DNA from: Akkermansia muciniphila | Lineage (GTDB): Bacteria > Verrucomicrobiota > Verrucomicrobiia > Verrucomicrobiales > V1-33 | Direction of reading: 5' to 3' | Length of the DNA: 64,000 nucleotides | Assembly (NCBI GenBank): GCA_943333275.1 | Contig: CALQSQ010000011.1 | Location: 1 to 64,000 of the forward strand | Shown here: positions 305-13,263 of the stretch, in pieces | How positions within the stretch are numbered: the stretch's first letter is position 1 | Layout of the letters: the number at the start of each line of letters is the position of its first letter | Translations under genes and position numbers: made by a program | The notes under the pieces: generated by a model | What the model was told of the DNA's origin: nothing | Databases searched by the model: none | The model's input: only the letters and a program-made list of their open reading frames with translations

Positions 305-3300
305 ATGTTTATTTCCAAGCTAATTCGTTTAAGACCCAGGGGGTTCACACTAATCGAAATCCTTATCACTGTTGGGGTCATCGCCATCCTGGCTGGAGCG
401 GCCTTTTTTGCGCTGCAGTCCAACATCAACACCGTTTCGCAGAAAGCGAAACTGCCCCAGGACGTGGCCACCATGAACCGCGCAGTGGAAACGTATCTGG
501 CCTCGGGGGGATCGCTCGACGGGGTGACCTCTCCGGCGGCAGTTCTGGCTAAGCTCAAGACCCAGGCGGTGGACCGGCAACAAATCGCCGCCGCCAACGG
601 CTCGATGATCGATCTTCGAATTAACATCCAGACTGCAACAGGATCGGCCGAGGAAGTGGCCATCTGGGATGCCCAACAGAAAGTGTTCCGGATTGTCAAA
701 AGCACTGCCGTCCCCAGCGGGACGACCGCCATTTCTGAATTTAAGGTCGATCCCAACGCCAGCTTCGAAATCGCGACGGAGAACCGCCAGAACAATTATC
801 ACCTGGCTGCGGAAAGCAATTGGATCTGGGATTATGAAGACCAGTATGGCGGAGAGGTCAGCCGCACCCTGATCCGCCCGAGCACCACCAAGTCCACCAA
901 CCGCCAGGCCCCCGCAACCGTCGCGGCGGCGCGCCTCCTGCCACCCACCTTTTCCCTGACTCCTGGGACCTATGCGCTATCCCGCTTTCCGGCGTCCGTG
1001 CAGCTTGCCAACCCCAATGCGGGCGGCACGTCCACCCTTTGGTTTTCGCAAAATTCCGCCGAATGGGCCATGTACGACTCTGCGATGTCAGTGCTTCCAG
1101 GTGCCGGTATTCAGGCGTATGCAGCCACTCTGAATGATGAATTATTCTCGGACAGCCAGACCGCGTCGGCGCTCTACGAGGCAAGCAAGGTGACCATTCA
1201 GGTCGGCGACAACGTGAAATCCTCCTTCCGCTACGGCGAACTGGGCGGACCACTGGCCCCCGGCTCCATCACCCCGGCTCCACTGACTCCGGGCAAACTC
1301 CTGCTGATGAATGGAGCCGAATTCCCGGATTACTGGGAGAACCATGACACGTTTCAGTTTTTCTGGACCCTCGACGGTGGAGATCCCAAACTCAACGGGG
1401 CGGGCCGTCGGACCGGCAATGATACGTTCGTAACCAACTATCCCGGGGATGAGGTGGCGGTCGCGCTGTCGGATTTCTCGACCTCCCCCTCCATCAATCT
1501 GCAATATTATGCGCTGGCCAAAAATCCCAATGTGGCCATCAGCAGCAATGTCACGCCGAAGTTGATCAGCCGTTCGGCCACCCCTCTGCTCCCGCCCCTG
1601 ATCACTCCCGGAACCGGCAGTCTCGACGGGACGGACCCGGTGGCCATGGTTCTGGACCTCACCGGTGGACAAACGCCCGCAGGGGCGCGGATTTTTTATC
1701 GCTCGGATGGTGTCGATCCCGGGGCGGGTCAGGATCCAAACCCCGGAGCCGTCGAATACACTGGCACCTTCCTGCCCGCTCCAAATATTGGTCCGGTGGC
1801 GGCGATTGGAGCCCGGGTCTATCCACCCGTTGGCTACAAGGACTGGTTCGTCACCAGTCCCGTGGCGGTACGGACGTATTTCCTGCCTTACGCTGACAAG
1901 AACATCTATGCTGTCACCGGAACCGATACGAGCACCTACGTCGTGGATCCCAACTCCGGCACCACCCAGCTCATCAACAGCACGGCTCCCTTCAACATGC
2001 GCACCATGGCCCTGGATGCAAAAAACGCCGCCCTCTACTACACGGAAGCCGCCGGCAGTGGCTGGCGTTTGGGACGGTACAATATCATCAGCCAGACGCA
2101 TGCGATTCTCGGAAGCCTGAGCACCGGCCGGACCTACAATGCCACCCAACAACCGGAAAACCTGACCTTCTACAACAACAACCTCTACTACATCGCACGC
2201 CAGTCGGACGACCTCATCAAAATCTCCCTCTCCACCGCGGCGGTGCCCGCGATCACCACCGTCAGCAAACTGGCCGACATTACCACCAACACCACGAGCT
2301 TTGCAACCGTTGGTGACATGGCCGTGGACGATAATGGCTGGATGTTTTTTGACGATGACGTCAAGCGCCACTACCGCTTCAGCCTGATCACGCTTAGCGG
2401 ATACAAACGCATTGGCGATACCGAGCGTGTCAATGATGCCCTGGCAATTTACCAGGGACTCCTCTATGCCGGGGATGTGGGCACCGATGATATCCGGCGC
2501 ATTTCGCCAGCCATCGGCACCACCCTTTCGAAAGTCACCACCGCCCCGGTGAAGCGTTTCGCCGATTTCGGTTCCCCCACTTCCTCCAGTGCCACTCCGG
2601 CCAGTTCGTCCCTGTGGATGATTGTGGATCACTCGGATGGCCCGCATCTGCATCAACTCCGCAATTACCGCAGTCCGGTGATCGCTGCGGATGTGGACTT
2701 TGGCGTGCTCAATTATCTCAGCGGAACCACCGTCACCAGCATGAATGCCGTGGGACAGGGCTACATCAAGGCCATGTGCATCACCTCGGCCGGGATGATG
2801 TATTTCTGCCGGAATTTCAAGACCACCATCAGTGGGACGGACTACTACCGCCCGATCATGAAGCTGGACATCAGCAATCTCTCACCCGGCGACACTCTGG
2901 CTGCCACCTTTGTGGGTGACCTCAAAACCAGCCTGACCACCATTGCCGGCACGATCGATCCGGATGATGTCGTGACGGGCATCACCATCTCACCTGCCGG
3001 CCAGCTCTATGGCGTCCTGCGGGAGGGATTAAATTCGGGGGCAGGCGGGGAGGATTATCTCTTCCGCGTCACGCAGACCGTCGCCAGCATGGCGGGTCCA
3101 AATCTCCCCACCGTCCTGGTTGGCAGGTTGACCTCCCCCGTCGGTTCCTCCACCCAGTCCGAAGACCTCACCTTCGGGCCGGACGGCCGCCTCTACGTCA
3201 GTGACATTTCGGACGACACCATTTACACGGTCGATTCCACAACCGGTTCCATCCTCACCTCCTTCGGCACGCAGACGAATGGAAACTATCTTGCCCTGGC

Positions 3301-5614
3301 TGTCGATCCACTCGACTACCGGCTGATCGGCAGCAGCTCCAGTGCCAGCTCACCAGCCAATTCACTGATGAAAGTGGATGGAAGCAGTGGAAACGACGAC
3401 CAGTTGATCGATATGGCCTCGCTTTTCGGCTTCAGCAACGTCGAAGCCATGGCCTTCTTCCAGGGGACTTTCGTCCTCTCCCAGGGCGAACCGGATCTGT
3501 ATGCGGTGGACGGGACGGAAACCATTTACGGCGTGGACATCGACACCGGGGCCACCAGCCTCGTGACCGACGCGCCCTTCCGCCTCCGCGCCCTGGCCTA
3601 TGATTTCGTGAACCAGCGTCTTTTTTATCTGCGGAACAGTGCAGGCTCCATGACGATCGGCAGCTACAGCCTCATCACCAACACCCATACGACCCAGGGC
3701 ACCCTCCAAGATTGGTGGCACGGTTACACACCCACCGAACTGCCGGATAACCTGTGCTACTTCGGTGGATTCCTCTGGTATGTGCCACCACGCTCGGATG
3801 ATCTGGTGAAAATTCAGCTCGACTCCACCGGCGCGGTGGTCAACCAGACCAAGGCCGCCGAGCTGACCGCCAACAACTTGAAATTTGACCTCATTGGCGA
3901 CCTGGCCGTGGCACCGGATGGATGGATGTATTTCACCGCCACCAATTTTGAAGGCCAGCGGTTCTGCCGCTTCCGGCTCCCGGCGCTGGCAAATTTTGAA
4001 GTCCTCTCCGGTCCCTCGTTCCCGAATACCTCCGTTCCAGCATCCGATTTCACCGAGTTGTGGTTCGACGCCCTGGCCTTCCGAACCGTGGACGGCGCAG
4101 GCAACCGGCCACTCTACGGCACCTTCTCCGCTGCCTCGGCACCACTGCGCACCGTTTCAACGACGAACGGCAGCAGCACGTTGTACAAGCCTCTCAATCC
4201 ATCCCTCCAGGTGATCGATTTCTCCGACTACCATCCCGGCTCCATGGGTTCGACTTCCTGGATCAGCACTCCCGTTATCGCCATCAACAATCTGCGCACC
4301 GGCTACACCTATGCGAACGTGGGTGGCCCATTCCTCCCCGGCACGACCGCAGCTCCCGCCGTTTCCGCACCACCGAACATTGTCCTCGTAAACTCCAACC
4401 AGATTCCCCTGACCCAACAGAACAGCAGTACCTTCTCCATCCAGTGGACGTATGATGGATCCAATCCCCTGACGTCCACAGCCGCCATCCTCGGGACCAC
4501 CTTCACCAACGGGATGCCGTCAATGCCCGTAGCGGTCGATTTCGCCAAATGGGGCACCCGCACCACGCTGCCGCTCAGCGCCGCCGCCAAATCCAACAAT
4601 GCTCTGATCATGACCGACTCTCCCCGGGTATCGGTGAGCGCCCCCATCATCAAGACCCAGCTGCGCGATGCCGTCTTCACCCTGGTGACCACCGGCTTCG
4701 GAATGCGCACGCTGGAAATATCCGGCGATATCAATGCCGGCGACTGCCCGCCCGGCACCAGGATTTACTATACCACCGACGGAACCGACCCCGGACTGAC
4801 CACCGACGTTTCCGGAATGGAAGTCCCCTCATCAGCCTCGGCCCTGCTGTACACCGGAGCCATTACGCCTCCCAACACCGGAACCGTTGATTATGTCGTG
4901 ACCGCCCGCGTCTACCCCCCCCCGACCCTCGGTTCCTGGTTTAGCACCAGCATCAGTGATTACATCGCCGTTCCCGTCGGGATCGCTGGTGGTCACATGG
5001 ATCTGGACACCTCCCACCTGCTCTACGCGTTCCGCAAAGGCACCACCGACGGCCACGTTCACGAGTATGACAAGGTTTACAACGTCGTGGGTTCCTCCTT
5101 CTTCGGCTTCCTGGATTCGAAACTTAAAAACATCCCGACCTACGTCGCCAACAACGTTAAATTCAAAATCATCGTCGCCAACGCCAACCTGTCCCCCGGC
5201 GGCCGGCTTGTGATCAACAAGAATTACAACTCCTCCGATCCGACCACTTGGATTCCCGTCACCACCTATGACGAGATCGCCCTCTCAGCCCTGCCCATCT
5301 ACAGCCTCAATGGGATTGCCGGAACCACGCAGCTTACGAAACTCGGCATTTACTTTGACACCAACGTCATCGCCGCTGGCGGCCTTATCCCCACGGTAAC
5401 CAGTAATGTTAGAAACAACACGCCTGGGTTGCTAGGCGAATGGCGCAATGGCGCTCTGACCGTTCAACTCGTCCTGGTCAATTCCAACGGCACCAATGGC
5501 TTCACCACCAACCTTGGCTACAGTAACGGCGGCGTCCAGGGCGTCGCCACCAGCGGACTGCTTTGGGAATCCACCGTCTTCTACCACTGGAGTGGAGCCG
5601 CATATGGCCAGTAA
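305..5614 (+). CDS. Giant surface protein with type IV prepilin N-terminus, chitobiase-like and propeller repeats
   Basis: This 1769-residue protein opens with a basic leader and the prepilin motif RGFTLIEILITVGVIAIL (Gly13, Phe14, Glu18), so a prepilin peptidase should cut after Gly13 and the hydrophobic helix should anchor or assemble it. The rest is far larger than a pilin. FFWTLDGGDP lies near residue 350 and TYDGSNP near 1380. Modules like the chitobiase/hexosaminidase C-terminal domain occur near 460 (RIFYRSDGVDPG) and 1484 (RIYYTTDGTDPG). Two related propeller-like blocks cover about 533-695 and 1073-1230. The last 207 residues (from about 1563) form a separate domain with HVHEYD. The start is fixed by the leader and by CAAGGGG at 295-301. 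No partner pilus genes are adjacent. Export by a type II/IV pilus-like machine is inference. Confidence 0.85.
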   Translation: MFISKLIRLRPRGFTLIEILITVGVIAILAGAAFFALQSNINTVSQKAKLPQDVATMNRAVETYLASGGSLDGVTSPAAVLAKLKTQAVDRQQIAAANGSMIDLRINIQTATGSAEEVAIWDAQQKVFRIVKSTAVPSGTTAISEFKVDPNASFEIATENRQNNYHLAAESNWIWDYEDQYGGEVSRTLIRPSTTKSTNRQAPATVAAARLLPPTFSLTPGTYALSRFPASVQLANPNAGGTSTLWFSQNSAEWAMYDSAMSVLPGAGIQAYAATLNDELFSDSQTASALYEASKVTIQVGDNVKSSFRYGELGGPLAPGSITPAPLTPGKLLLMNGAEFPDYWENHDTFQFFWTLDGGDPKLNGAGRRTGNDTFVTNYPGDEVAVALSDFSTSPSINLQYYALAKNPNVAISSNVTPKLISRSATPLLPPLITPGTGSLDGTDPVAMVLDLTGGQTPAGARIFYRSDGVDPGAGQDPNPGAVEYTGTFLPAPNIGPVAAIGARVYPPVGYKDWFVTSPVAVRTYFLPYADKNIYAVTGTDTSTYVVDPNSGTTQLINSTAPFNMRTMALDAKNAALYYTEAAGSGWRLGRYNIISQTHAILGSLSTGRTYNATQQPENLTFYNNNLYYIARQSDDLIKISLSTAAVPAITTVSKLADITTNTTSFATVGDMAVDDNGWMFFDDDVKRHYRFSLITLSGYKRIGDTERVNDALAIYQGLLYAGDVGTDDIRRISPAIGTTLSKVTTAPVKRFADFGSPTSSSATPASSSLWMIVDHSDGPHLHQLRNYRSPVIAADVDFGVLNYLSGTTVTSMNAVGQGYIKAMCITSAGMMYFCRNFKTTISGTDYYRPIMKLDISNLSPGDTLAATFVGDLKTSLTTIAGTIDPDDVVTGITISPAGQLYGVLREGLNSGAGGEDYLFRVTQTVASMAGPNLPTVLVGRLTSPVGSSTQSEDLTFGPDGRLYVSDISDDTIYTVDSTTGSILTSFGTQTNGNYLALAVDPLDYRLIGSSSSASSPANSLMKVDGSSGNDDQLIDMASLFGFSNVEAMAFFQGTFVLSQGEPDLYAVDGTETIYGVDIDTGATSLVTDAPFRLRALAYDFVNQRLFYLRNSAGSMTIGSYSLITNTHTTQGTLQDWWHGYTPTELPDNLCYFGGFLWYVPPRSDDLVKIQLDSTGAVVNQTKAAELTANNLKFDLIGDLAVAPDGWMYFTATNFEGQRFCRFRLPALANFEVLSGPSFPNTSVPASDFTELWFDALAFRTVDGAGNRPLYGTFSAASAPLRTVSTTNGSSTLYKPLNPSLQVIDFSDYHPGSMGSTSWISTPVIAINNLRTGYTYANVGGPFLPGTTAAPAVSAPPNIVLVNSNQIPLTQQNSSTFSIQWTYDGSNPLTSTAAILGTTFTNGMPSMPVAVDFAKWGTRTTLPLSAAAKSNNALIMTDSPRVSVSAPIIKTQLRDAVFTLVTTGFGMRTLEISGDINAGDCPPGTRIYYTTDGTDPGLTTDVSGMEVPSSASALLYTGAITPPNTGTVDYVVTARVYPPPTLGSWFSTSISDYIAVPVGIAGGHMDLDTSHLLYAFRKGTTDGHVHEYDKVYNVVGSSFFGFLDSKLKNIPTYVANNVKFKIIVANANLSPGGRLVINKNYNSSDPTTWIPVTTYDEIALSALPIYSLNGIAGTTQLTKLGIYFDTNVIAAGGLIPTVTSNVRNNTPGLLGEWRNGALTVQLVLVNSNGTNGFTTNLGYSNGGVQGVATSGLLWESTVFYHWSGAAYGQ

Positions 5615-6473: not shown

Positions 6474-6680
6474 ATGAGCAAAATCAGCATCCTTGAGAAA
6501 TTCGCCCAAGACGCCATTAACGCACCAGCCCTGGTGACCGGCGGTAAAAAATGCGGCGGCAGCAAGAAGAAGAGTCATAAGTCCAAGAGCCACAAATCAG
6601 GTGGCGGCAGCAAGGCCAAGAGCCGTAAATCCGGCGGCAGCAAAGGCAGTTGCTACGTGCCCCCTCCATGCAAGTACTAA
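6474..6680 (+). CDS. Double-glycine-leader secreted peptide with Ser-Lys/Ser-Arg repeats
   Basis: The 68-residue product has a 24-residue leader (ISILEKFAQDAINAPALVTGG at its end) finishing in Gly23-Gly24, the cleavage site used by C39 peptidases. The 44-residue remainder is very basic and serine-rich. It holds three Gly-Gly-Ser-Lys-type units separated by Ser-His-Lys and Ser-Arg-Lys repeats, and Cys27, Cys60 and Cys66 near its ends, finishing CYVPPPCKY. The frame is open upstream from a GTG at 6408, but ATG 6474 gives a normal leader length. A C39 exporter operon starts 246 bases downstream, behind a terminator. It is probably a bacteriocin-like or signalling peptide. The repeats resemble eukaryotic RS domains, and the kinase at the end of the following operon resembles SR-protein kinases. 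Activity and modification are unknown. Confidence 0.8.
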   Translation: MSKISILEKFAQDAINAPALVTGGKKCGGSKKKSHKSKSHKSGGGSKAKSRKSGGSKGSCYVPPPCKY

Positions 6681-6746: not shown

Positions 6747-6925
6747 CAGGACCGCAAAGTTTGTCATGAACTCCGATGGCGCGTTCAGGGGGCGGTCTAG
6801 AAGGCCATGAGTTCAGGGAATTCACAAATTTTATTCTCATTTATGCTATTTTTGCAATTTATGCGATTTTTCCTTTACGGAATGGGATTTATGGTTTTTA
6901 CTATCAACCTAATTCCTTAAGATCC

Positions 6926-8461
6926 ATGAATTTCCAGAATCTCATCCGTTGGAGCGTTTTTTTCATCCTCCCCATTCTCCTCGGCAGTTGTGCGCTCACT
7001 GAGGAAAAGCTTCAGGCAGTGAGGAAACCTTCCAACAGTAACGAAATTCGCAGGGCCAGGATTGTGGGTGAGCCTGGGGAAACCGGACCGAAATTACCGG
7101 GAAGCGGGGGGCAGATCACAGTTGATGAATGTGTAGAATTTGCGCTGGAGAAAAATTTCTCGATCCGGCTCGCGAAAGCGGCGGAGAAGGCGGCGGTGGC
7201 GGATTTGACGCGGGCCAAAGCTGCGTTTGATCCGACGATTGGTGGCTCCGTGGTTACCAGTGACGCGGGGCAGGGGTGGAGTGGGGCAACCGGCAGCGGG
7301 GGGATTTCCAAGAAATTCGTCACAGGCACTGAGGTCAGGATGGAAGCGGGGGATGTCTATGGCAACAGCGGCGATTTCCGGGATGATTATTTAACGGGAC
7401 AGGCAACCTCGGATCTGACGGTGAGCGTCCGGCAGCCGCTGCTGCGCGGGGCGAACTGGGGGGTGAACCGCTCGGGAATCAAATTGGCGGAATTGCTGAA
7501 GGAGCAGGCCACGGCATCAAAGACTGCAGAGGTGTTGGATATGCTGCGGGCGGCGGAAACTGCCTATTGGACGGCAGCGGTGGCGCGGGAGGTGCTGGAG
7601 CGCCAAAAGACCAGCCTGCAACGCGCGGAGAAATTGCATGCCGATGTCAAGGCCCGTCTCGACGCAGGCGAGGCCTCGCAACTCGACGTACTGGAGGCGG
7701 ACGTCGCGCTGGCCGGAGCGCAGGAACGACTCGTGGCGGCCGAGCGCGCGGCGGCGGATCGGTTGGACGAAATGTGGTTTGTGCTGGGGGTGTCGGTGAA
7801 TCAGCGGCCTGAGAAAATAACCTTTCCAGCGATCGATGAAAAAGCGCTGCAAGCAGCCAAACCCAACGTGGCAGCCAGCACCACCAGTGCTCTGACGCAA
7901 TCCCCCGCCGCCGTGCTGCTGGTCAACGAAGTGCAGCGTCGCGAGATCGAACTGCGCAAGGCCCGCAACGGGCTGCTGCCGCAGGTCGATTTGGAATTCG
8001 ATGCCGATCACGTCAACAACCGCACTTCCAGCACGGGAAACAAATCCGGAGGATATGACGCGGTGGCCTTGATCCGTGTAAGCATGCCGCTGACTTTCCG
8101 GGCAGAGCGTGCGGACTTGGCGCGAGCCCAGGCGGAACTGGAGCGCAGCCAGGCCAGCCGGGAACAGGCGGAATTGCGGTTGCGCCAGCGTGTTGCGGAA
8201 TTGTGCCGCGCCTTGCTTTCAGGCAGCGAGACGCTGCGCGTGGCGAAACTGTCGCTCGCGGCGCGTCAGAAGAAAATTGAGGAGGAAGTCCGCCGTCATG
8301 CGGAAGGATTGCTTTCCACCCACGATTTGCGGATTGCCCAGGAGGAACTGGATGGAGCGGAACTCAATGAACTGCAGGCCCGCCTCTCGCTGTTAGGCAA
8401 TCAGGCATCGCTCGGCCAGTTGGACGGCAATCTGGCCGGTCGTCACGGCATTTCCCTGTAG
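6926..8461 (+). CDS. TolC-family outer-membrane efflux lipoprotein
   Basis: The 511-residue product starts with a lipoprotein signal whose lipobox is LGSC (Cys about residue 22). It continues with the OEP pattern of TolC-like proteins: VDECVEFALEKNFSIRLAKA near the N-terminus, long Ala/Glu/Arg-rich helices, and a second repeat with LRKARNGLLPQVDLEF. It should form the outer-membrane channel of a type I secretion system with the next two products. The ATG at 6926 is preferred over an upstream in-frame ATG at 6776 because it gives a clean signal peptide. The upstream 100 bases are very A+T-rich and probably hold the operon promoter. The next gene starts 12 bases after its stop. Confidence 0.9.
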   Translation: MNFQNLIRWSVFFILPILLGSCALTEEKLQAVRKPSNSNEIRRARIVGEPGETGPKLPGSGGQITVDECVEFALEKNFSIRLAKAAEKAAVADLTRAKAAFDPTIGGSVVTSDAGQGWSGATGSGGISKKFVTGTEVRMEAGDVYGNSGDFRDDYLTGQATSDLTVSVRQPLLRGANWGVNRSGIKLAELLKEQATASKTAEVLDMLRAAETAYWTAAVAREVLERQKTSLQRAEKLHADVKARLDAGEASQLDVLEADVALAGAQERLVAAERAAADRLDEMWFVLGVSVNQRPEKITFPAIDEKALQAAKPNVAASTTSALTQSPAAVLLVNEVQRREIELRKARNGLLPQVDLEFDADHVNNRTSSTGNKSGGYDAVALIRVSMPLTFRAERADLARAQAELERSQASREQAELRLRQRVAELCRALLSGSETLRVAKLSLAARQKKIEEEVRRHAEGLLSTHDLRIAQEELDGAELNELQARLSLLGNQASLGQLDGNLAGRHGISL

Positions 8462-8473
8462 GTCATTGCAACC

Positions 8474-10699
8474 ATGGCAAAATTTTCCCATTACCCCCAG
8501 CTGGATGCGATGGACTGCGGTCCCGCGTGTCTGCGGATGATTTGCTCGCATTATGGACGCGAGTTCAACCGGGCCCGGTTGCGGGACTTGTGTTTGATCG
8601 GCAAGGCGGGAGTTTCGATGCTGGGAATTTCGGATGCGGCTGAGAAATTGGGCCTGCGCAGTCTGCCGGTGAAACTTTCCTTCGAACGGTTGGTGAAGGA
8701 GGCCCCGCTGCCCTGCATTGCACATTGGAACCAGGATCACTTTGTCGTCGTTTATAAGATCACAAAGCGGGCGGTGCATGTGGCGGACCCCGCCATGGGA
8801 CTAATGACCTATACCCATGCGGAATTCCTGCATGGCGTCAATGGCGGGGCTCCGGGCAATCCTGATACCCAGGGTCTCTTTCTCCTGCTGGAGCCCACGC
8901 CCGCCTTCCACGAAACGCCCGCCAACCCCGGCCAGGAGCGCGATGAGACACGCCGCGGCCTGCTCTTTTTCGTCTCCTACCTGCGGCCCTACAAGAAACT
9001 GATGTGGCAACTGCTCATCGCCATGGTCGTGGGATTGATCCTGGAACTGATCCTGCCTTTTGTCGCGCAGGCGGTGGTGGATCACGGGATTGGCAACCTG
9101 GATTTAAATTTCATTTACGTTCTGCTGGCTGCGCAGCTGGTGCTCTCGCTCAGCCAAATGGCCGGGGATATGGTGCGCAGTTGGATCCTGCTCCACATAG
9201 GATCGCGCATCAGCGTGTCCATGGTCTCCGATTTCCTGACCAAGCTCCTGCGACTGCCGCTGGAGTTCTTCGACACCCGCACCGCCGGCGATATCATGCA
9301 GCGGATCGGCGATCACCGGCGGGTGAAAAGTTTCCTCATGTCCTCGTCCCTCGATGTGGCGTTTTCCACCCTGACTTTTCTAGTCTTCGGCGTGGTCCTG
9401 GCCATTTACTCGTGGGTGATTGTGCTCGTTTTTGCGGTCATGACCATCCTCAGCGCGTGCTGGCTGGTGTTGTTTTTGAAGCAACGGCGCATCATCGATC
9501 AGAAGCGTTTCATGATCGATGCCAGGGAGCGGGACAACCTTTATGAACTGGTGTCCGCGATGCAGGAAATCAAAATCCAGGGCATCCAGCGGCCCAAGCG
9601 TGGCGAGTGGGAGGACATCAGCGTGCGGGGATACAAGCTGGAGGCCAAAACGCTGGCGCTGCGGCAAATGGAGCGCATCGGCTTGTTCTTCATCAATAAT
9701 CTGCGCAATATTTTCATCACCTTCATTTCCGCCCGGGCGGTGATTCAGGGGGAAATGACGCTGGGCATGATGCTCGCGGCCCAATACATCGCCGGCCAGT
9801 TGAACTCGCCCGTGGTCCGGTTGATTGAGTTTGTGCATTCCGGTCAGGAAGCCCGATTGAGCCTGGAGCGGATGCAGGAAATCTACAGCCAGCCGGAGGA
9901 GGCGGAGGCAACCCAGCAAAAGCCCTGTTCCTTCCCGGCCTCGCGTGTGCTGACTTTGCAGGGGGTGAGTTTCCGCTATGCCGGAGCCGGTCAGCAGAAT
10001 GTGCTGACAAATGTGAACCTGCAAATTCCGGAAGGCCGCGTCACCGCTATTGTCGGCAGCAGCGGGAGTGGCAAAACCACCCTGCTCAAGCTGCTGCTGG
10101 GAATGTATCAACCCACCAGCGGCAACATTTACGTGGGTCATGTTCCGCTGCAGACGTTCGATGCCCATGCGTGGCGTCGCCGGTGCGGTGTGGTGATGCA
10201 GGATGGACACATTTTCTCCGCCACACTGGCCCGCAACATCGCTCCCGGAAATGAGCCGATCGATCCGCTCCGCTTGCAGGCTGCGATTCAGCTCGCGAGC
10301 CTTGGCGACTATGTCAACGGCCTGCCGCTGGGCGTGGAAACCAAACTGGGTGACGACGGCCAGGGCTTGTCCGGCGGGCAACGGCAGCGGGTGCTCATTG
10401 CCAGGGCCTTCTATCGCAATCCAGAATATTTACTGCTCGACGAAGCCACCAGCGCGCTGGATTCCAACAACGAATTTGTCATCCAACACCACCTTCGCCA
10501 GTTCGCCCAGGGTCGCACGGTGGTGGTGATCGCGCACCGCCTGAGTACGGTGAAAAATGCGGATCAAATTGTCGTGCTCCATCAGGGACAAATTGTGGAA
10601 ATCGGCGACCACAGCTCGCTGGTACAGCATCGCGGCGCCTATTACCAACTGGTGCATAACCAACTGGAACTCGAAACCTCCCTCAGCCATGCCGCGTAG
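8474..10699 (+). CDS. C39 peptidase-containing ABC exporter
   Basis: The 741-residue protein has the three parts of a bacteriocin-type processing exporter. The N-terminal C39 cysteine peptidase (about 1-130) has DCGPAC with Cys15, HF with His89 and DPAMG with Asp105 as the expected catalytic triad. A six-helix membrane domain covers about 165-460. The ATPase domain (about 490-741) has GSSGSGKTT at 528-536, LSGGQRQR from 632 and a YLLLDEAT Walker B. Such proteins cut the leader after Gly-Gly and export the peptide. The peptide encoded just upstream carries exactly such a site. The HlyD-type gene overlaps its end by 11 bases. Confidence 0.95.
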   Translation: MAKFSHYPQLDAMDCGPACLRMICSHYGREFNRARLRDLCLIGKAGVSMLGISDAAEKLGLRSLPVKLSFERLVKEAPLPCIAHWNQDHFVVVYKITKRAVHVADPAMGLMTYTHAEFLHGVNGGAPGNPDTQGLFLLLEPTPAFHETPANPGQERDETRRGLLFFVSYLRPYKKLMWQLLIAMVVGLILELILPFVAQAVVDHGIGNLDLNFIYVLLAAQLVLSLSQMAGDMVRSWILLHIGSRISVSMVSDFLTKLLRLPLEFFDTRTAGDIMQRIGDHRRVKSFLMSSSLDVAFSTLTFLVFGVVLAIYSWVIVLVFAVMTILSACWLVLFLKQRRIIDQKRFMIDARERDNLYELVSAMQEIKIQGIQRPKRGEWEDISVRGYKLEAKTLALRQMERIGLFFINNLRNIFITFISARAVIQGEMTLGMMLAAQYIAGQLNSPVVRLIEFVHSGQEARLSLERMQEIYSQPEEAEATQQKPCSFPASRVLTLQGVSFRYAGAGQQNVLTNVNLQIPEGRVTAIVGSSGSGKTTLLKLLLGMYQPTSGNIYVGHVPLQTFDAHAWRRRCGVVMQDGHIFSATLARNIAPGNEPIDPLRLQAAIQLASLGDYVNGLPLGVETKLGDDGQGLSGGQRQRVLIARAFYRNPEYLLLDEATSALDSNNEFVIQHHLRQFAQGRTVVVIAHRLSTVKNADQIVVLHQGQIVEIGDHSSLVQHRGAYYQLVHNQLELETSLSHAA

Positions 10700-12026
10700 C
10701 CTGCCATCGTCACAGCTCCCTTTGTCCCTGCAGATGCCCGGTGCCCTGGGCATGAGCGATACCGTGCGCGAACTGATGGGTCGTCCGCCCCATTGGCTGT
10801 TGCGCTCCGGCGCCACCATTCTGGCTTCTGTCATTTTGCTGATCCTCACCCTGAGCGCCATCATCAGTTATCCTGACATGATCACCAGTCGCCTGACCGT
10901 GACCGGCAGTCACTCCGTGGTTGAAGTCATGGCCCGGCAGTCCGGTCATTTGCAGTCGGTGAAAGTGAGGGAAAAACAAATGGTGAAGCAGGGCGAGGTG
11001 CTGGCGGTCCTCGAAAACCCGTGCGATGCCGAGGCCTTCCTCAGCCTGAGAACCCAGCTCGACAAGGTTTCCGCCATGCTCGTAAGCGATTCTGCCTTTG
11101 TGAAGGAGAAGTTTCCCGCCGAACCCAAACTGGGAAAACTGCAGGATTCATTTTCCGATTTCCTGGCCTCCTACACCAGGTTGCTCGCCATCTGGAACGA
11201 TGATCACATCACCAAAACCGCCGGGCTGCTCACGGCCCAGTTGGAAAGCAAACTCAGCCAGGTCGAGAACATGAAAGGACAGCAGTCCCTCATGGACCAG
11301 GAACTCAAGCTGGCGCAGGAAAAATACGACCGGATGAAGGCGCTCTTCGCCCGCGGCACCATCAGTGCCGCCCAGTTGAAGGACCACGAAACGCTGCTCC
11401 TCAACCAATCCCGCGAACATTCCTCCGTGGAAAAAAACATGTTGGAGGAACAGATCCTCGCCAGCCGCCTGGACAAGGAAATCCGCGATTTAAAACATGA
11501 ACGCACCGAAGCCATGCAGCTCGCGCGGGACCGCTTCCGTGTTTCCTATCAAAAGCTGCGGGCGGAAATGGACATCTGGGAAAGCGACTACGTGCTGAAA
11601 GCCCCCTCCGACGGCATGGTGGCCTTCTACGATTTCTGGAATGAACAACAATATGTGACCGCCGGACGCCAGGTGTTTATCATCGTTCCGGAAACGTCCA
11701 GCCTGCGCGGGCGCGTGACCATCAGCCAGGGCGGCACGGGAAAGATCAAACCCGGGCAGCTGGTGCGGATTAAATTTGATGATTATCCCTCCAAGGATTT
11801 TGGCATCGTGACCGGCCGCGTGCAATCCGTTTCCCTCGTTGCGAGGGAGGGATCCAATCAGGTCCTGGTCGATCTCGACTACCCGCTCATTTCCAGTTAT
11901 CACAAACCCCTCCATTTTAAACAGGAAATGGCGGGAGAGGCCAGCATCGTCACCGAAAACACCTCCCTCCTCGGGCGCATCTTCTATGAAATCCGCAGAG
12001 CTTTCCATCAAGGTTCCGATTCCTAA
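10689..12026 (+). CDS. HlyD-family periplasmic adaptor of the peptide exporter
   Basis: This 445-residue membrane-fusion protein has one membrane helix (about 37-59). It then has a lipoyl-like half (HLQSVKVREKQMVKQGEVLA), a long charged coiled coil (about 150-285), the second lipoyl half (YVLKAPSDGMVAFYDF) and a C-terminal barrel region. It would bridge the ABC exporter and the TolC-like channel. The start at 10689 overlaps the exporter stop by 11 bases, so translation is probably coupled. Another in-frame ATG follows at 10734. The kinase gene overlaps its 3' end by 41 bases. Confidence 0.9.
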   Translation: MPRSLPSSQLPLSLQMPGALGMSDTVRELMGRPPHWLLRSGATILASVILLILTLSAIISYPDMITSRLTVTGSHSVVEVMARQSGHLQSVKVREKQMVKQGEVLAVLENPCDAEAFLSLRTQLDKVSAMLVSDSAFVKEKFPAEPKLGKLQDSFSDFLASYTRLLAIWNDDHITKTAGLLTAQLESKLSQVENMKGQQSLMDQELKLAQEKYDRMKALFARGTISAAQLKDHETLLLNQSREHSSVEKNMLEEQILASRLDKEIRDLKHERTEAMQLARDRFRVSYQKLRAEMDIWESDYVLKAPSDGMVAFYDFWNEQQYVTAGRQVFIIVPETSSLRGRVTISQGGTGKIKPGQLVRIKFDDYPSKDFGIVTGRVQSVSLVAREGSNQVLVDLDYPLISSYHKPLHFKQEMAGEASIVTENTSLLGRIFYEIRRAFHQGSDS

Positions 12027-13263
12027 AACAGCACCGCCCCAACGCGTGGCTTTAAAGATTCAGCGTCGCTGCTACGGACGCGATGCCCTCACAGAAATTG
12101 GCATCCACCATTACCTGCGTCGGGATCACGGTCCATCACCCGATCTCATCGGCTTCCATGAAGCATTTTTTCATGACGGACATGTCTGCACATCCTACGA
12201 ACTGCATGGGCGCTCGCTCGACACTTTTGTGGATCGTGGACCGCTGCCCCTGAACGAAGTGCGCGCCATCACCCGCCAGCTCCTCGGAGGACTCGTCCGC
12301 ATGCACGAATATGGATTCGCCCACACCGATGTGAAACCCCAGAACATCCTCTACCGCCGCACGCCCAAGCCCCGGGCGCGGCTCAGTGATTTGGGAAATG
12401 CCGATAACATTCTCCGCCGGGGATCCAACCGCTGCACCCGCGATTACACCCCGCCGGAAGTGTTGTTAGGCAATCCGCTGGACCTGCGCCTCGACCTCTG
12501 GTCCCTTGCCTGCACCGTGTTCGAACTCGCCACCGGCCATGTCTTATTCGATCCTTACCAAGCCACCGGTCGCAAATACAAGGAGTTCAATCAGAAACTT
12601 CCCGAAACCGCCTACGATCCCTCCGTGGCCGCCGATGCCGCCGCAGAAGCCGCAGAACAATATCGCGCCGGCCACATTCTCAGTGGCAAATATCGCCTCG
12701 AATCCAAACTGGGCTCGGGAAAATTTGCCACCGTCTGGCGCGCCGCCGTTCTCAATTCAAATCCACTCGATGGCACCTATGACACCTTGTCCGCCAACTG
12801 TAAGGAAATCGAGGACGCGATCCCCAGCGACAACACTTCCACCGAAGACCCCGCCCGGTCCTGGCGCAAAGCCCGCGGGGCGCAGGACCTCCACGACCTC
12901 GTCCTCAACTACGAACACCTCGTCCTCATGCAGGAACTGCTCGGCCCCCCACCGCGCGAATGGGCCGCTTCCGGCAACTACGCCTCCGCCTATTGCACTC
13001 CTGACGGTCACTTCAAACACGACCCGGCACCAGCAAATCCAGTCACCCTGGAAACCCTCCTCCGCCACAGAAAACTCCGTGCCACCGACGCCAGAGAGCT
13101 GGCCGCATTTCTCATGCCCATGCTCACATGGAAACCAGCGGACCGCCCCATCGCCACCGCCTGCCTGGATCACCCATGGCTGCACACGCCGCTCAGGATA
13201 TCTCCTTTTCTCACGCGTCACCTCCCGCCTCATCGATCTCAAAAATCTGCCATACTCGCATAA
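11986..13263 (+). CDS. SR-protein-kinase-like protein kinase with displaced glycine-rich loop
   Basis: The 425-residue product has CMGC/SRPK-like kinase motifs in an abnormal order. First come VALK (Lys24), a helix-C Glu (Glu37), the catalytic loop HTDVKPQN (113-120), DLGN in place of DFG (135-138), TRDYTPPEVLLG and DLWSLACTVFELATG. Only then comes KLGSGKFATVWRA (glycine-rich loop, 243-251), normally N-terminal. It is followed by ELLGPPPREW, GHFKH and FLMPML...LDHPWL, all close to SRPK landmarks. The start at 11986 overlaps the HlyD-type gene by 41 bases, leaving no room for a normal N-lobe. Proposed role: phosphorylating the Ser-rich peptide, an exporter part or an immunity target. It could be an active permuted kinase, a pseudokinase or the result of misassembly. 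Confidence 0.75.
   Translation: MKSAELSIKVPIPKTAPPQRVALKIQRRCYGRDALTEIGIHHYLRRDHGPSPDLIGFHEAFFHDGHVCTSYELHGRSLDTFVDRGPLPLNEVRAITRQLLGGLVRMHEYGFAHTDVKPQNILYRRTPKPRARLSDLGNADNILRRGSNRCTRDYTPPEVLLGNPLDLRLDLWSLACTVFELATGHVLFDPYQATGRKYKEFNQKLPETAYDPSVAADAAAEAAEQYRAGHILSGKYRLESKLGSGKFATVWRAAVLNSNPLDGTYDTLSANCKEIEDAIPSDNTSTEDPARSWRKARGAQDLHDLVLNYEHLVLMQELLGPPPREWAASGNYASAYCTPDGHFKHDPAPANPVTLETLLRHRKLRATDARELAAFLMPMLTWKPADRPIATACLDHPWLHTPLRISPFLTRHLPPHRSQKSAILA

Follow-up and report, generated by a model that had tools for sequence, protein, structure and literature searches.

A family of SRPK-like protein kinases with a displaced glycine loop, encoded beside double-glycine peptide exporters in Verrucomicrobiota

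Results

Motif order of the kinase

The window analysed here, a stretch of 64,000 nucleotides from Akkermansia muciniphila (GenBank assembly GCA_943333275.1, contig CALQSQ010000011.1), carries a peptide-exporter gene cluster together with a 425-residue protein kinase, P0001, whose glycine loop lies behind the catalytic and activation loops. The motifs of P0001 run in the order VALK (residues 21-24), the αC glutamate E37, HTDVKPQN (113-120), DLGN (135-138), TRDYTPPE (151-158), DLWS (170-173) and LFDP (187-190). They are followed by GKYRLESKLGSGKFATVWRA at 234-253 and then by an SRPK-like C-terminal segment (308-400). The translation bears out a first-pass annotation of this DNA, which had placed a glycine loop between DLWS and SRPK-like segments in a frame without internal stop. 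A Pfam Pkinase match (E 5.2e-31) has a best stretch that begins only at profile position 43, indicating that the N-terminus of the protein lacks β1-β2.

The kinase gene was found in seven Verrucomicrobiota genomes (the window genome, G007, G053, G168, G434, G490 and G495). The homologues are 33-42% identical to P0001, and all seven proteins share the layout [β3 to αF] - [linker and β1-β2 glycine loop] - [αG to C-terminus], with the same cut points and in single open frames. Below, these three parts are called blocks B, A and C. Invariant throughout are K24, E37, H113, D115, K117, N120, D135, G137, G243, G245 and V250. Among the regions compared, mean pairwise identity is highest in the displaced hairpin (0.56), followed by the stretch from the catalytic loop to FDP (0.53), and is low in the linkers (0.28 over 203-226 and 0.20 over 254-300). 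The two linkers measure 41-59 and 44-69 residues, and the first is acidic in most homologues, with up to 20 Asp/Glu.

Identity of the displaced segment

Searching the PDB with P0001 as a single sequence gave SRPK1, SRPK2 and Sky1p as best relatives, the SRPK1 and SRPK2 alignments falling in four separate pieces, one of which sets residues 227-253 against the N-terminal glycine loop of either kinase. A phmmer alignment of residues 227-253 onto the N-terminal glycine loop of SRPK1 reached 7.4 bits, which is weak when taken alone. We then built a profile (A4) from the 45-residue segments of the seven proteins, which were excised by motif. Run against the PDB chains as a whole, it matched 296 sequences at E<=1; the best 60 of these 296 were all protein kinases, with SRPK1 on top (4.6e-5), and the alignments shown fell in the N-terminal strand-loop-strand of the PDB kinases. 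The family profile aligned with Sky1p in three pieces, Sky1p 20-41 onto 235-256, 45-239 onto 18-190 and 248-338 onto 309-399 (total E 5.8e-61), indicating that each Sky1p core block is present once, in the order B-A-C instead of A-B-C. Unconstrained MAFFT, in addition, placed canonical β1-β2 fragments of unrelated kinases onto the displaced segment. The earlier suggestion that residues 243-251 form a nucleotide loop is thus upheld by the segment profile, the three-block Sky1p alignment and the unforced alignment of canonical fragments.

It could be argued that GSGKFATVW is a chance or unrelated glycine-rich motif within an insert, and that the kinase has simply lost β1-β2. When Pfam was run on single 45-residue segments, the window's segment gave no kinase match at E<=10, and only one of the seven gave a weak kinase match (E 0.093). 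Set against this are the seven-row segment profile, a match that spans β1, loop and β2 and picks out the kinase family that the remaining sequence also matches, a conservation equal to that of the catalytic region, and the MAFFT placement; together they make a chance motif very improbable. The first-pass annotation had left the choice between duplication and permutation open. A six-frame search of about 3 kb around each of the seven loci (less at contig ends) found the segment once per locus at E<=1e-22, with a sole other match at E 0.5, and no second glycine loop. Permutation therefore stands and duplication is unsupported.

The window genome is a draft of 215 contigs, in which a chimera or misassembly might have displaced the loop; this explanation was rejected as hardly credible because the same order, cut points and single open frames recur in six other assemblies at 33-42% identity. 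The first-pass annotation had also remarked that the overlap with hlyD leaves no space for a normal N-lobe. The overlap is real (kinase ATG at 11986, hlyD stop at 12024-12026), but it is not the cause of the order, because the kinase of G053, which lies upstream of the ABC gene and not behind hlyD, is equally permuted. On these comparisons, the displaced piece is homologous to a kinase glycine loop, single and, judged by its conservation, under selection, and the permutation is natural and not an artefact.

Distribution of the permuted family

A protein search of 57 genomes (the window genome and relatives) returned two further long matches, in G007 (44%) and G053 (42%), both with the same order. 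With profile A1 the gene was found in six of 386 genomes of the order and in G168 among 384 genomes of the class, and no additional permuted kinase appeared among 387 genomes of the phylum; these three sets overlap, and at most four first-look candidates were scored per genome. At E<=1e-25 the same profile gave only permuted genes in these sets, and no canonical-order SRPK-like sister was found among them. The order is conserved across seven separately assembled genomes, with no normal-order homologue found. A further 207 and 68 genomes searched with profile A2 held no new permuted member: permuted genes scored 528-584 bits, and everything else scored at most 96 bits and matched block B only. 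Plasmids gave generic kinases only. Viral contigs gave nothing with profile A1 and partial kinase matches only with profile A2. Searching GTDB 220 by two peptide patterns, the sole reach into other phyla, returned only G007 and G053.

Predicted fold and probable docking of the hairpin

AlphaFold run on a 44-row input (A7) predicted an SRPK-like fold with a mean predicted local distance difference test score (pLDDT) of 88.1 and a predicted template modelling score (pTM) of 0.89. The hairpin strands were predicted at residues 236-244 and 248-255, and the ten-residue blocks that hold most of the hairpin average 93-96. The input comprised three near-full proteins, 19 canonical block-B fragments and 22 canonical block-A fragments, the fragments being those that passed motif filters (19 of 24 and 22 of 24). 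The closest structural neighbours of the model are SRPK2, SRPK1 and Sky1p (Z 28-31, root-mean-square deviation about 2, 34-35% identity over about 272 residues), SRPK2 giving Z 30.8, a deviation of 1.9 and 35% identity over 272 residues. This structural alignment begins at β3, the first strand of the model; being sequential, it cannot reveal the displaced hairpin.

The displaced hairpin likely docks in cis onto β3 and completes the N-lobe, and the linkers appear long enough to span the kinase domain. Two features of the predictions weigh against this placement: with only three rows AlphaFold gave a pLDDT of 40.0, and the input of the good run held canonical β1-β2 fragments in rows of their own, an aid to recognising a kinase. 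The hairpin might instead complete the N-lobe of a partner, making the kinase an obligate domain-swapped dimer. A hairpin leaving the C-lobe on two such linkers would permit this arrangement, and ABC exporters, beside which the kinase is encoded, function as dimers. The single-chain model is nevertheless a confident one, and we regard the swapped dimer as quite unlikely.

Exporter genes beside the kinase

The features of the cluster are collected in Table 1. In the usual gene order, genes for a TolC-like protein, an ABC exporter and an HlyD-family adaptor precede the kinase. An hlyD gene lies beside the kinase in all seven loci and a C39-ABC gene in six, the seventh contig (G495) ending inside hlyD. 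The kinase is directly downstream of hlyD in six of the seven; in G053 it opens the cluster, upstream of the ABC gene, and there it immediately precedes the peptide gene, away from hlyD. The best NCBIfam match of the C39-ABC protein is TIGR03796, at 446 bits under a cut-off of 853. Related HlyD proteins occur in nine of 366 genomes of the order, namely six kinase genomes plus G056, G032 and G038. In these last three, no permuted kinase was found beside the related HlyD or elsewhere in the genome searches. HlyD proteins of this superphylum are known from another type of locus, and the word kinase is absent from that source (PMC4452313).

Table 1. Coordinates of the kinase, its blocks and the neighbouring genes in the window
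Feature	Position	Strand	Remarks
Proposed substrate: 68-residue peptide; double-glycine leader MSKISILEKFAQDAINAPALVTGG, core rich in Ser and Lys KKCGGSKKKSHKSKSHKSGGGSKAKSRKSGGSKGSCYVPPPCKY	6474..6680	+	Relatives in 6 of 7 kinase genomes, window included
TolC-like outer-membrane protein, start codon uncertain	6776..8461	+	Named by reading; relatives beside kinase in loci L053, L055 and L058 and on G490 contig C407
ABC exporter, C39 peptidase at its N-terminus	8474..10699	+	Pfam PF03412 (E 3.3e-33), PF00005, PF00664
HlyD-family adaptor, true start probably inside ORF (open reading frame)	10557..12026	+	Pfam HlyD_3 (E 3.9e-15); 41-base overlap with kinase
Permuted SRPK-like protein kinase, 425 residues (P0001)	11986..13263	+	Order kept in 7 of 7 homologues
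Block B: β3 (VALK, K24), αC (E37), β4-β5, catalytic loop (HTDVKPQN), DLG, TPPE, αF, ending LFDP; residues 19-190	12040..12555	+	Aligns with Sky1p 45-239
First linker, residues 191-228; carries a KYxE motif and is acidic in most homologues	12556..12669	+	6-20 D/E vs 2-7 K/R per linker
Displaced block A: β1-glycine loop-β2, GHILSGKYRLESKLGSGKFATVWRA, residues 229-253	12670..12744	+	Mean pairwise identity 0.56
Second linker, residues 254-308	12745..12909	+	Mean pairwise identity 0.20 over 254-300
Block C, residues 309-400: αG and remainder of the C-lobe, SRPK-type	12910..13185	+	Aligns with Sky1p 248-338, 61.4 bits

At 305-5614 the window also encodes a large protein of 1768 residues, whose N-terminus is of prepilin type (GFTLIE; Pfam N_methyl 3.2e-6) and which carries a chitobiase C-terminal domain. 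In L053, L054 and L056 (two copies), relatives of this pilin-like protein adjoin the cluster of exporter and kinase genes. Such a protein is near the kinase in four of seven loci and was seen at none of the three loci without the kinase.

A serine-lysine-rich double-glycine peptide

A scan for small basic Ser-rich ORFs detected a peptide with a double-glycine (GG) leader upstream of the TolC or ABC gene in the window and in L053, L054, L055 and L058. A profile search added a peptide in G490, which precedes TolC and ABC on contig C407. The peptide thus heads the exporter genes in all six genomes that carry both peptide and kinase. The cores are rich in Ser-Lys and Ser-Arg: the six contain 69 dipeptides of Ser next to Lys or Arg vs 36.5 +/- 4.6 after shuffling, and none of 5000 shuffles reached 69. 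At E<=0.1, NCBIfam gave no match for the five peptides scanned, and GG-leader Ser-Lys/Arg peptides were not found in the plasmids searched. A possible second family peptide lies on contig C434 of G053 (L173; E 4.5e-5, leader region only).

Several observations speak against a strict pairing of kinase and peptide. In G495, which has the kinase, the profile search did not find the peptide; the kinase contig there ends inside hlyD. The main counter-evidence comes from G056, which has a related exporter and two Ser-Arg-rich peptides and in which no permuted kinase was found. Both peptides (L069:15600-16302 and L172:1429-1791) have literal Ser-Arg repeats; one lies upstream of TolC at a contig end, the other on contig C3. 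Since the former runs off the contig end, a neighbouring kinase could be missing from the assembly. The large pilin-like protein might also be a cargo or partner.

Before the exporters of G032 and G038, the frames read contained no Ser-Lys/Arg peptide. In G038 (L071:5700-6560) two GG-leader peptides rich in Gly, Ser and Tyr are encoded ahead of the exporter, which suggests that this exporter family also handles peptides of other types.

Discussion

A proposed route to the permuted kinase and its role

We propose that an ancestral kinase of order A-B-C, in which A comprised an N-terminal extension and the β1-β2 glycine loop, B ran from β3 to αF and C from αG to αI, was rearranged to B-A-C; one cut point falls between β2 and β3, in the turn, and the other in the loop joining αF to αG. 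Tethered by two linkers of about 40-70 residues, the hairpin of block A would most likely fold back within the same chain onto β3 and complete the N-lobe and ATP site. Within a small system for exported peptides, the kinase would act as the modifying enzyme, binding the basic core of the neighbouring double-glycine peptide with its Ser-Lys/Arg repeats and phosphorylating the serines there; the C39 ABC exporter would then cleave the leader and export the phosphopeptide via HlyD and TolC.

The closest solved relatives act on proteins with Arg/Ser dipeptides, a Ser-Lys/Arg peptide is encoded nearby and in most homologues the linker next to the glycine loop is acidic. Phosphorylation before export is the simplest account. 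The acidity of most N-terminal linkers is what would be expected for gripping a basic substrate. Taken whole, the account of an active, block-permuted SRPK-like kinase that phosphorylates the neighbouring peptide before export seems to us reasonably probable. Its parts differ in strength. The retained catalytic residues suggest that the kinase is very probably active. That the peptide is its substrate we hold to be somewhat likelier than the contrary, and the chance that phosphorylation precedes export appears evenly balanced. Cleavage after GG during export is suggested by the leader sequence and the PF03412 match.

Alternatively, the kinase may regulate the exporter, through HlyD or the ABC protein, or else the large protein of pilin type, leaving the peptide unmodified. 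Its position directly 3' of hlyD in six of seven loci would fit such a role, as would the occurrence of the pilin-like protein near four of seven kinase loci and at none of the three kinase-less ones. However, the Ser-Lys/Arg peptide is present in six of the seven kinase genomes with a composition that matches the substrate type of the closest known kinases, and in G053 the kinase directly precedes the peptide gene, away from hlyD. We consider a regulatory role unlikely. Less probable still is an inactive pseudokinase acting as a scaffold for the peptide; the permutation could have damaged ATP binding, but all canonical catalytic residues are invariant in the seven proteins.

Relation to known kinases and peptide systems

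By sequence and structure, the closest catalytic domain is that of SRPK and Sky1p, all three blocks of which are matched. The family profile matched Sky1p/SRPK entries of the PDB at 5.8e-61 to 2.6e-51, and the next family, CLK2, at 3.4e-46. SRPK substrates are proteins with Arg/Ser dipeptides, and the SRPK catalytic core is described as split by a large spacer (PMC5293202). By contrast, no large spacer splits the catalytic core of P0001, in which HTDVKPQN and DLGN lie 14 residues apart, and the canonical order, with the glycine loop N-terminal to VAxK, is replaced by B-A-C in all seven proteins. The window kinase is, furthermore, bacterial and placed in a peptide-export cluster. Because neither the canonical order nor the spacer was found, we call it SRPK-like and do not file it as an SRPK. 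The hallmarks of an active eukaryotic-type kinase, namely the VAxK lysine, the αC glutamate, HxDxKxxN, DxG and a GxG....V loop, were present in all seven proteins.

Rearranged kinase-like proteins have a precedent in DUF2252, a family of the Pfam PKinase clan noted for its flipped lobes (PMC9758233). Whole lobes are flipped there, whereas only β1-β2 has moved in the window kinase and the rest is collinear. The DUF2252 profile was not among the Pfam matches of P0001 at E<=1, HMMER filters dropping most weak matches.

The cluster resembles double-glycine C39 peptide systems (bacteriocins, NHLP-type) in its GG leader, C39-ABC protein (PF03412), HlyD and TolC-like protein, and its GG-leader peptide adjoins the C39-domain ABC exporter as in those systems. 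What sets it apart is a peptide core made of Ser-Lys/Arg repeats and, as the conserved additional gene found, a standalone kinase. Kinase domains also act in peptide maturation in LanL/LanKC lanthipeptide synthetases and TOMM kinase-cyclases, which are fused multidomain enzymes with normal kinase order. These gave weak NCBIfam matches in the kinase region, far under cut-off, and neither a lyase nor a cyclase was seen next to the window kinase. Diatom silaffins are Lys/Ser-rich secreted phosphopeptides of similar composition; they are eukaryotic, with other leaders and other kinases.

Significance of a displaced glycine loop

In open-licence PMC literature on permuted kinases, on kinase-modified C39/GG peptides and on SRPK with Verrucomicrobia or Planctomycetes, the top matches described neither a eukaryotic-type protein kinase whose glycine loop is displaced nor a kinase-modified C39 peptide of this kind. 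The protein kinase fold is among the most studied and is defined by motif order. A conserved natural family that carries its glycine loop behind the catalytic and activation loops suggests that this order is unnecessary for the fold, and it lends itself readily to testing how activity is limited by assembly of the N-lobe. Automatic annotation can mistake permuted kinases for N-terminally truncated ones.

The pairing of kinase and peptide points to a specific candidate substrate, and the secreted bacterial phosphopeptide that would follow, possibly of a new class, is directly testable. Tentatively, the Ser-Lys/Arg repeats might be multiply phosphorylated and secreted by the C39 exporter as a zwitterionic, densely phosphorylated peptide, in what would be an undescribed bacterial peptide maturation system and a counterpart of SR-protein phosphorylation. 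The ATP lid of such a kinase, reaching over from the C-lobe on mostly acidic linkers, might close only upon engagement of the basic substrate.

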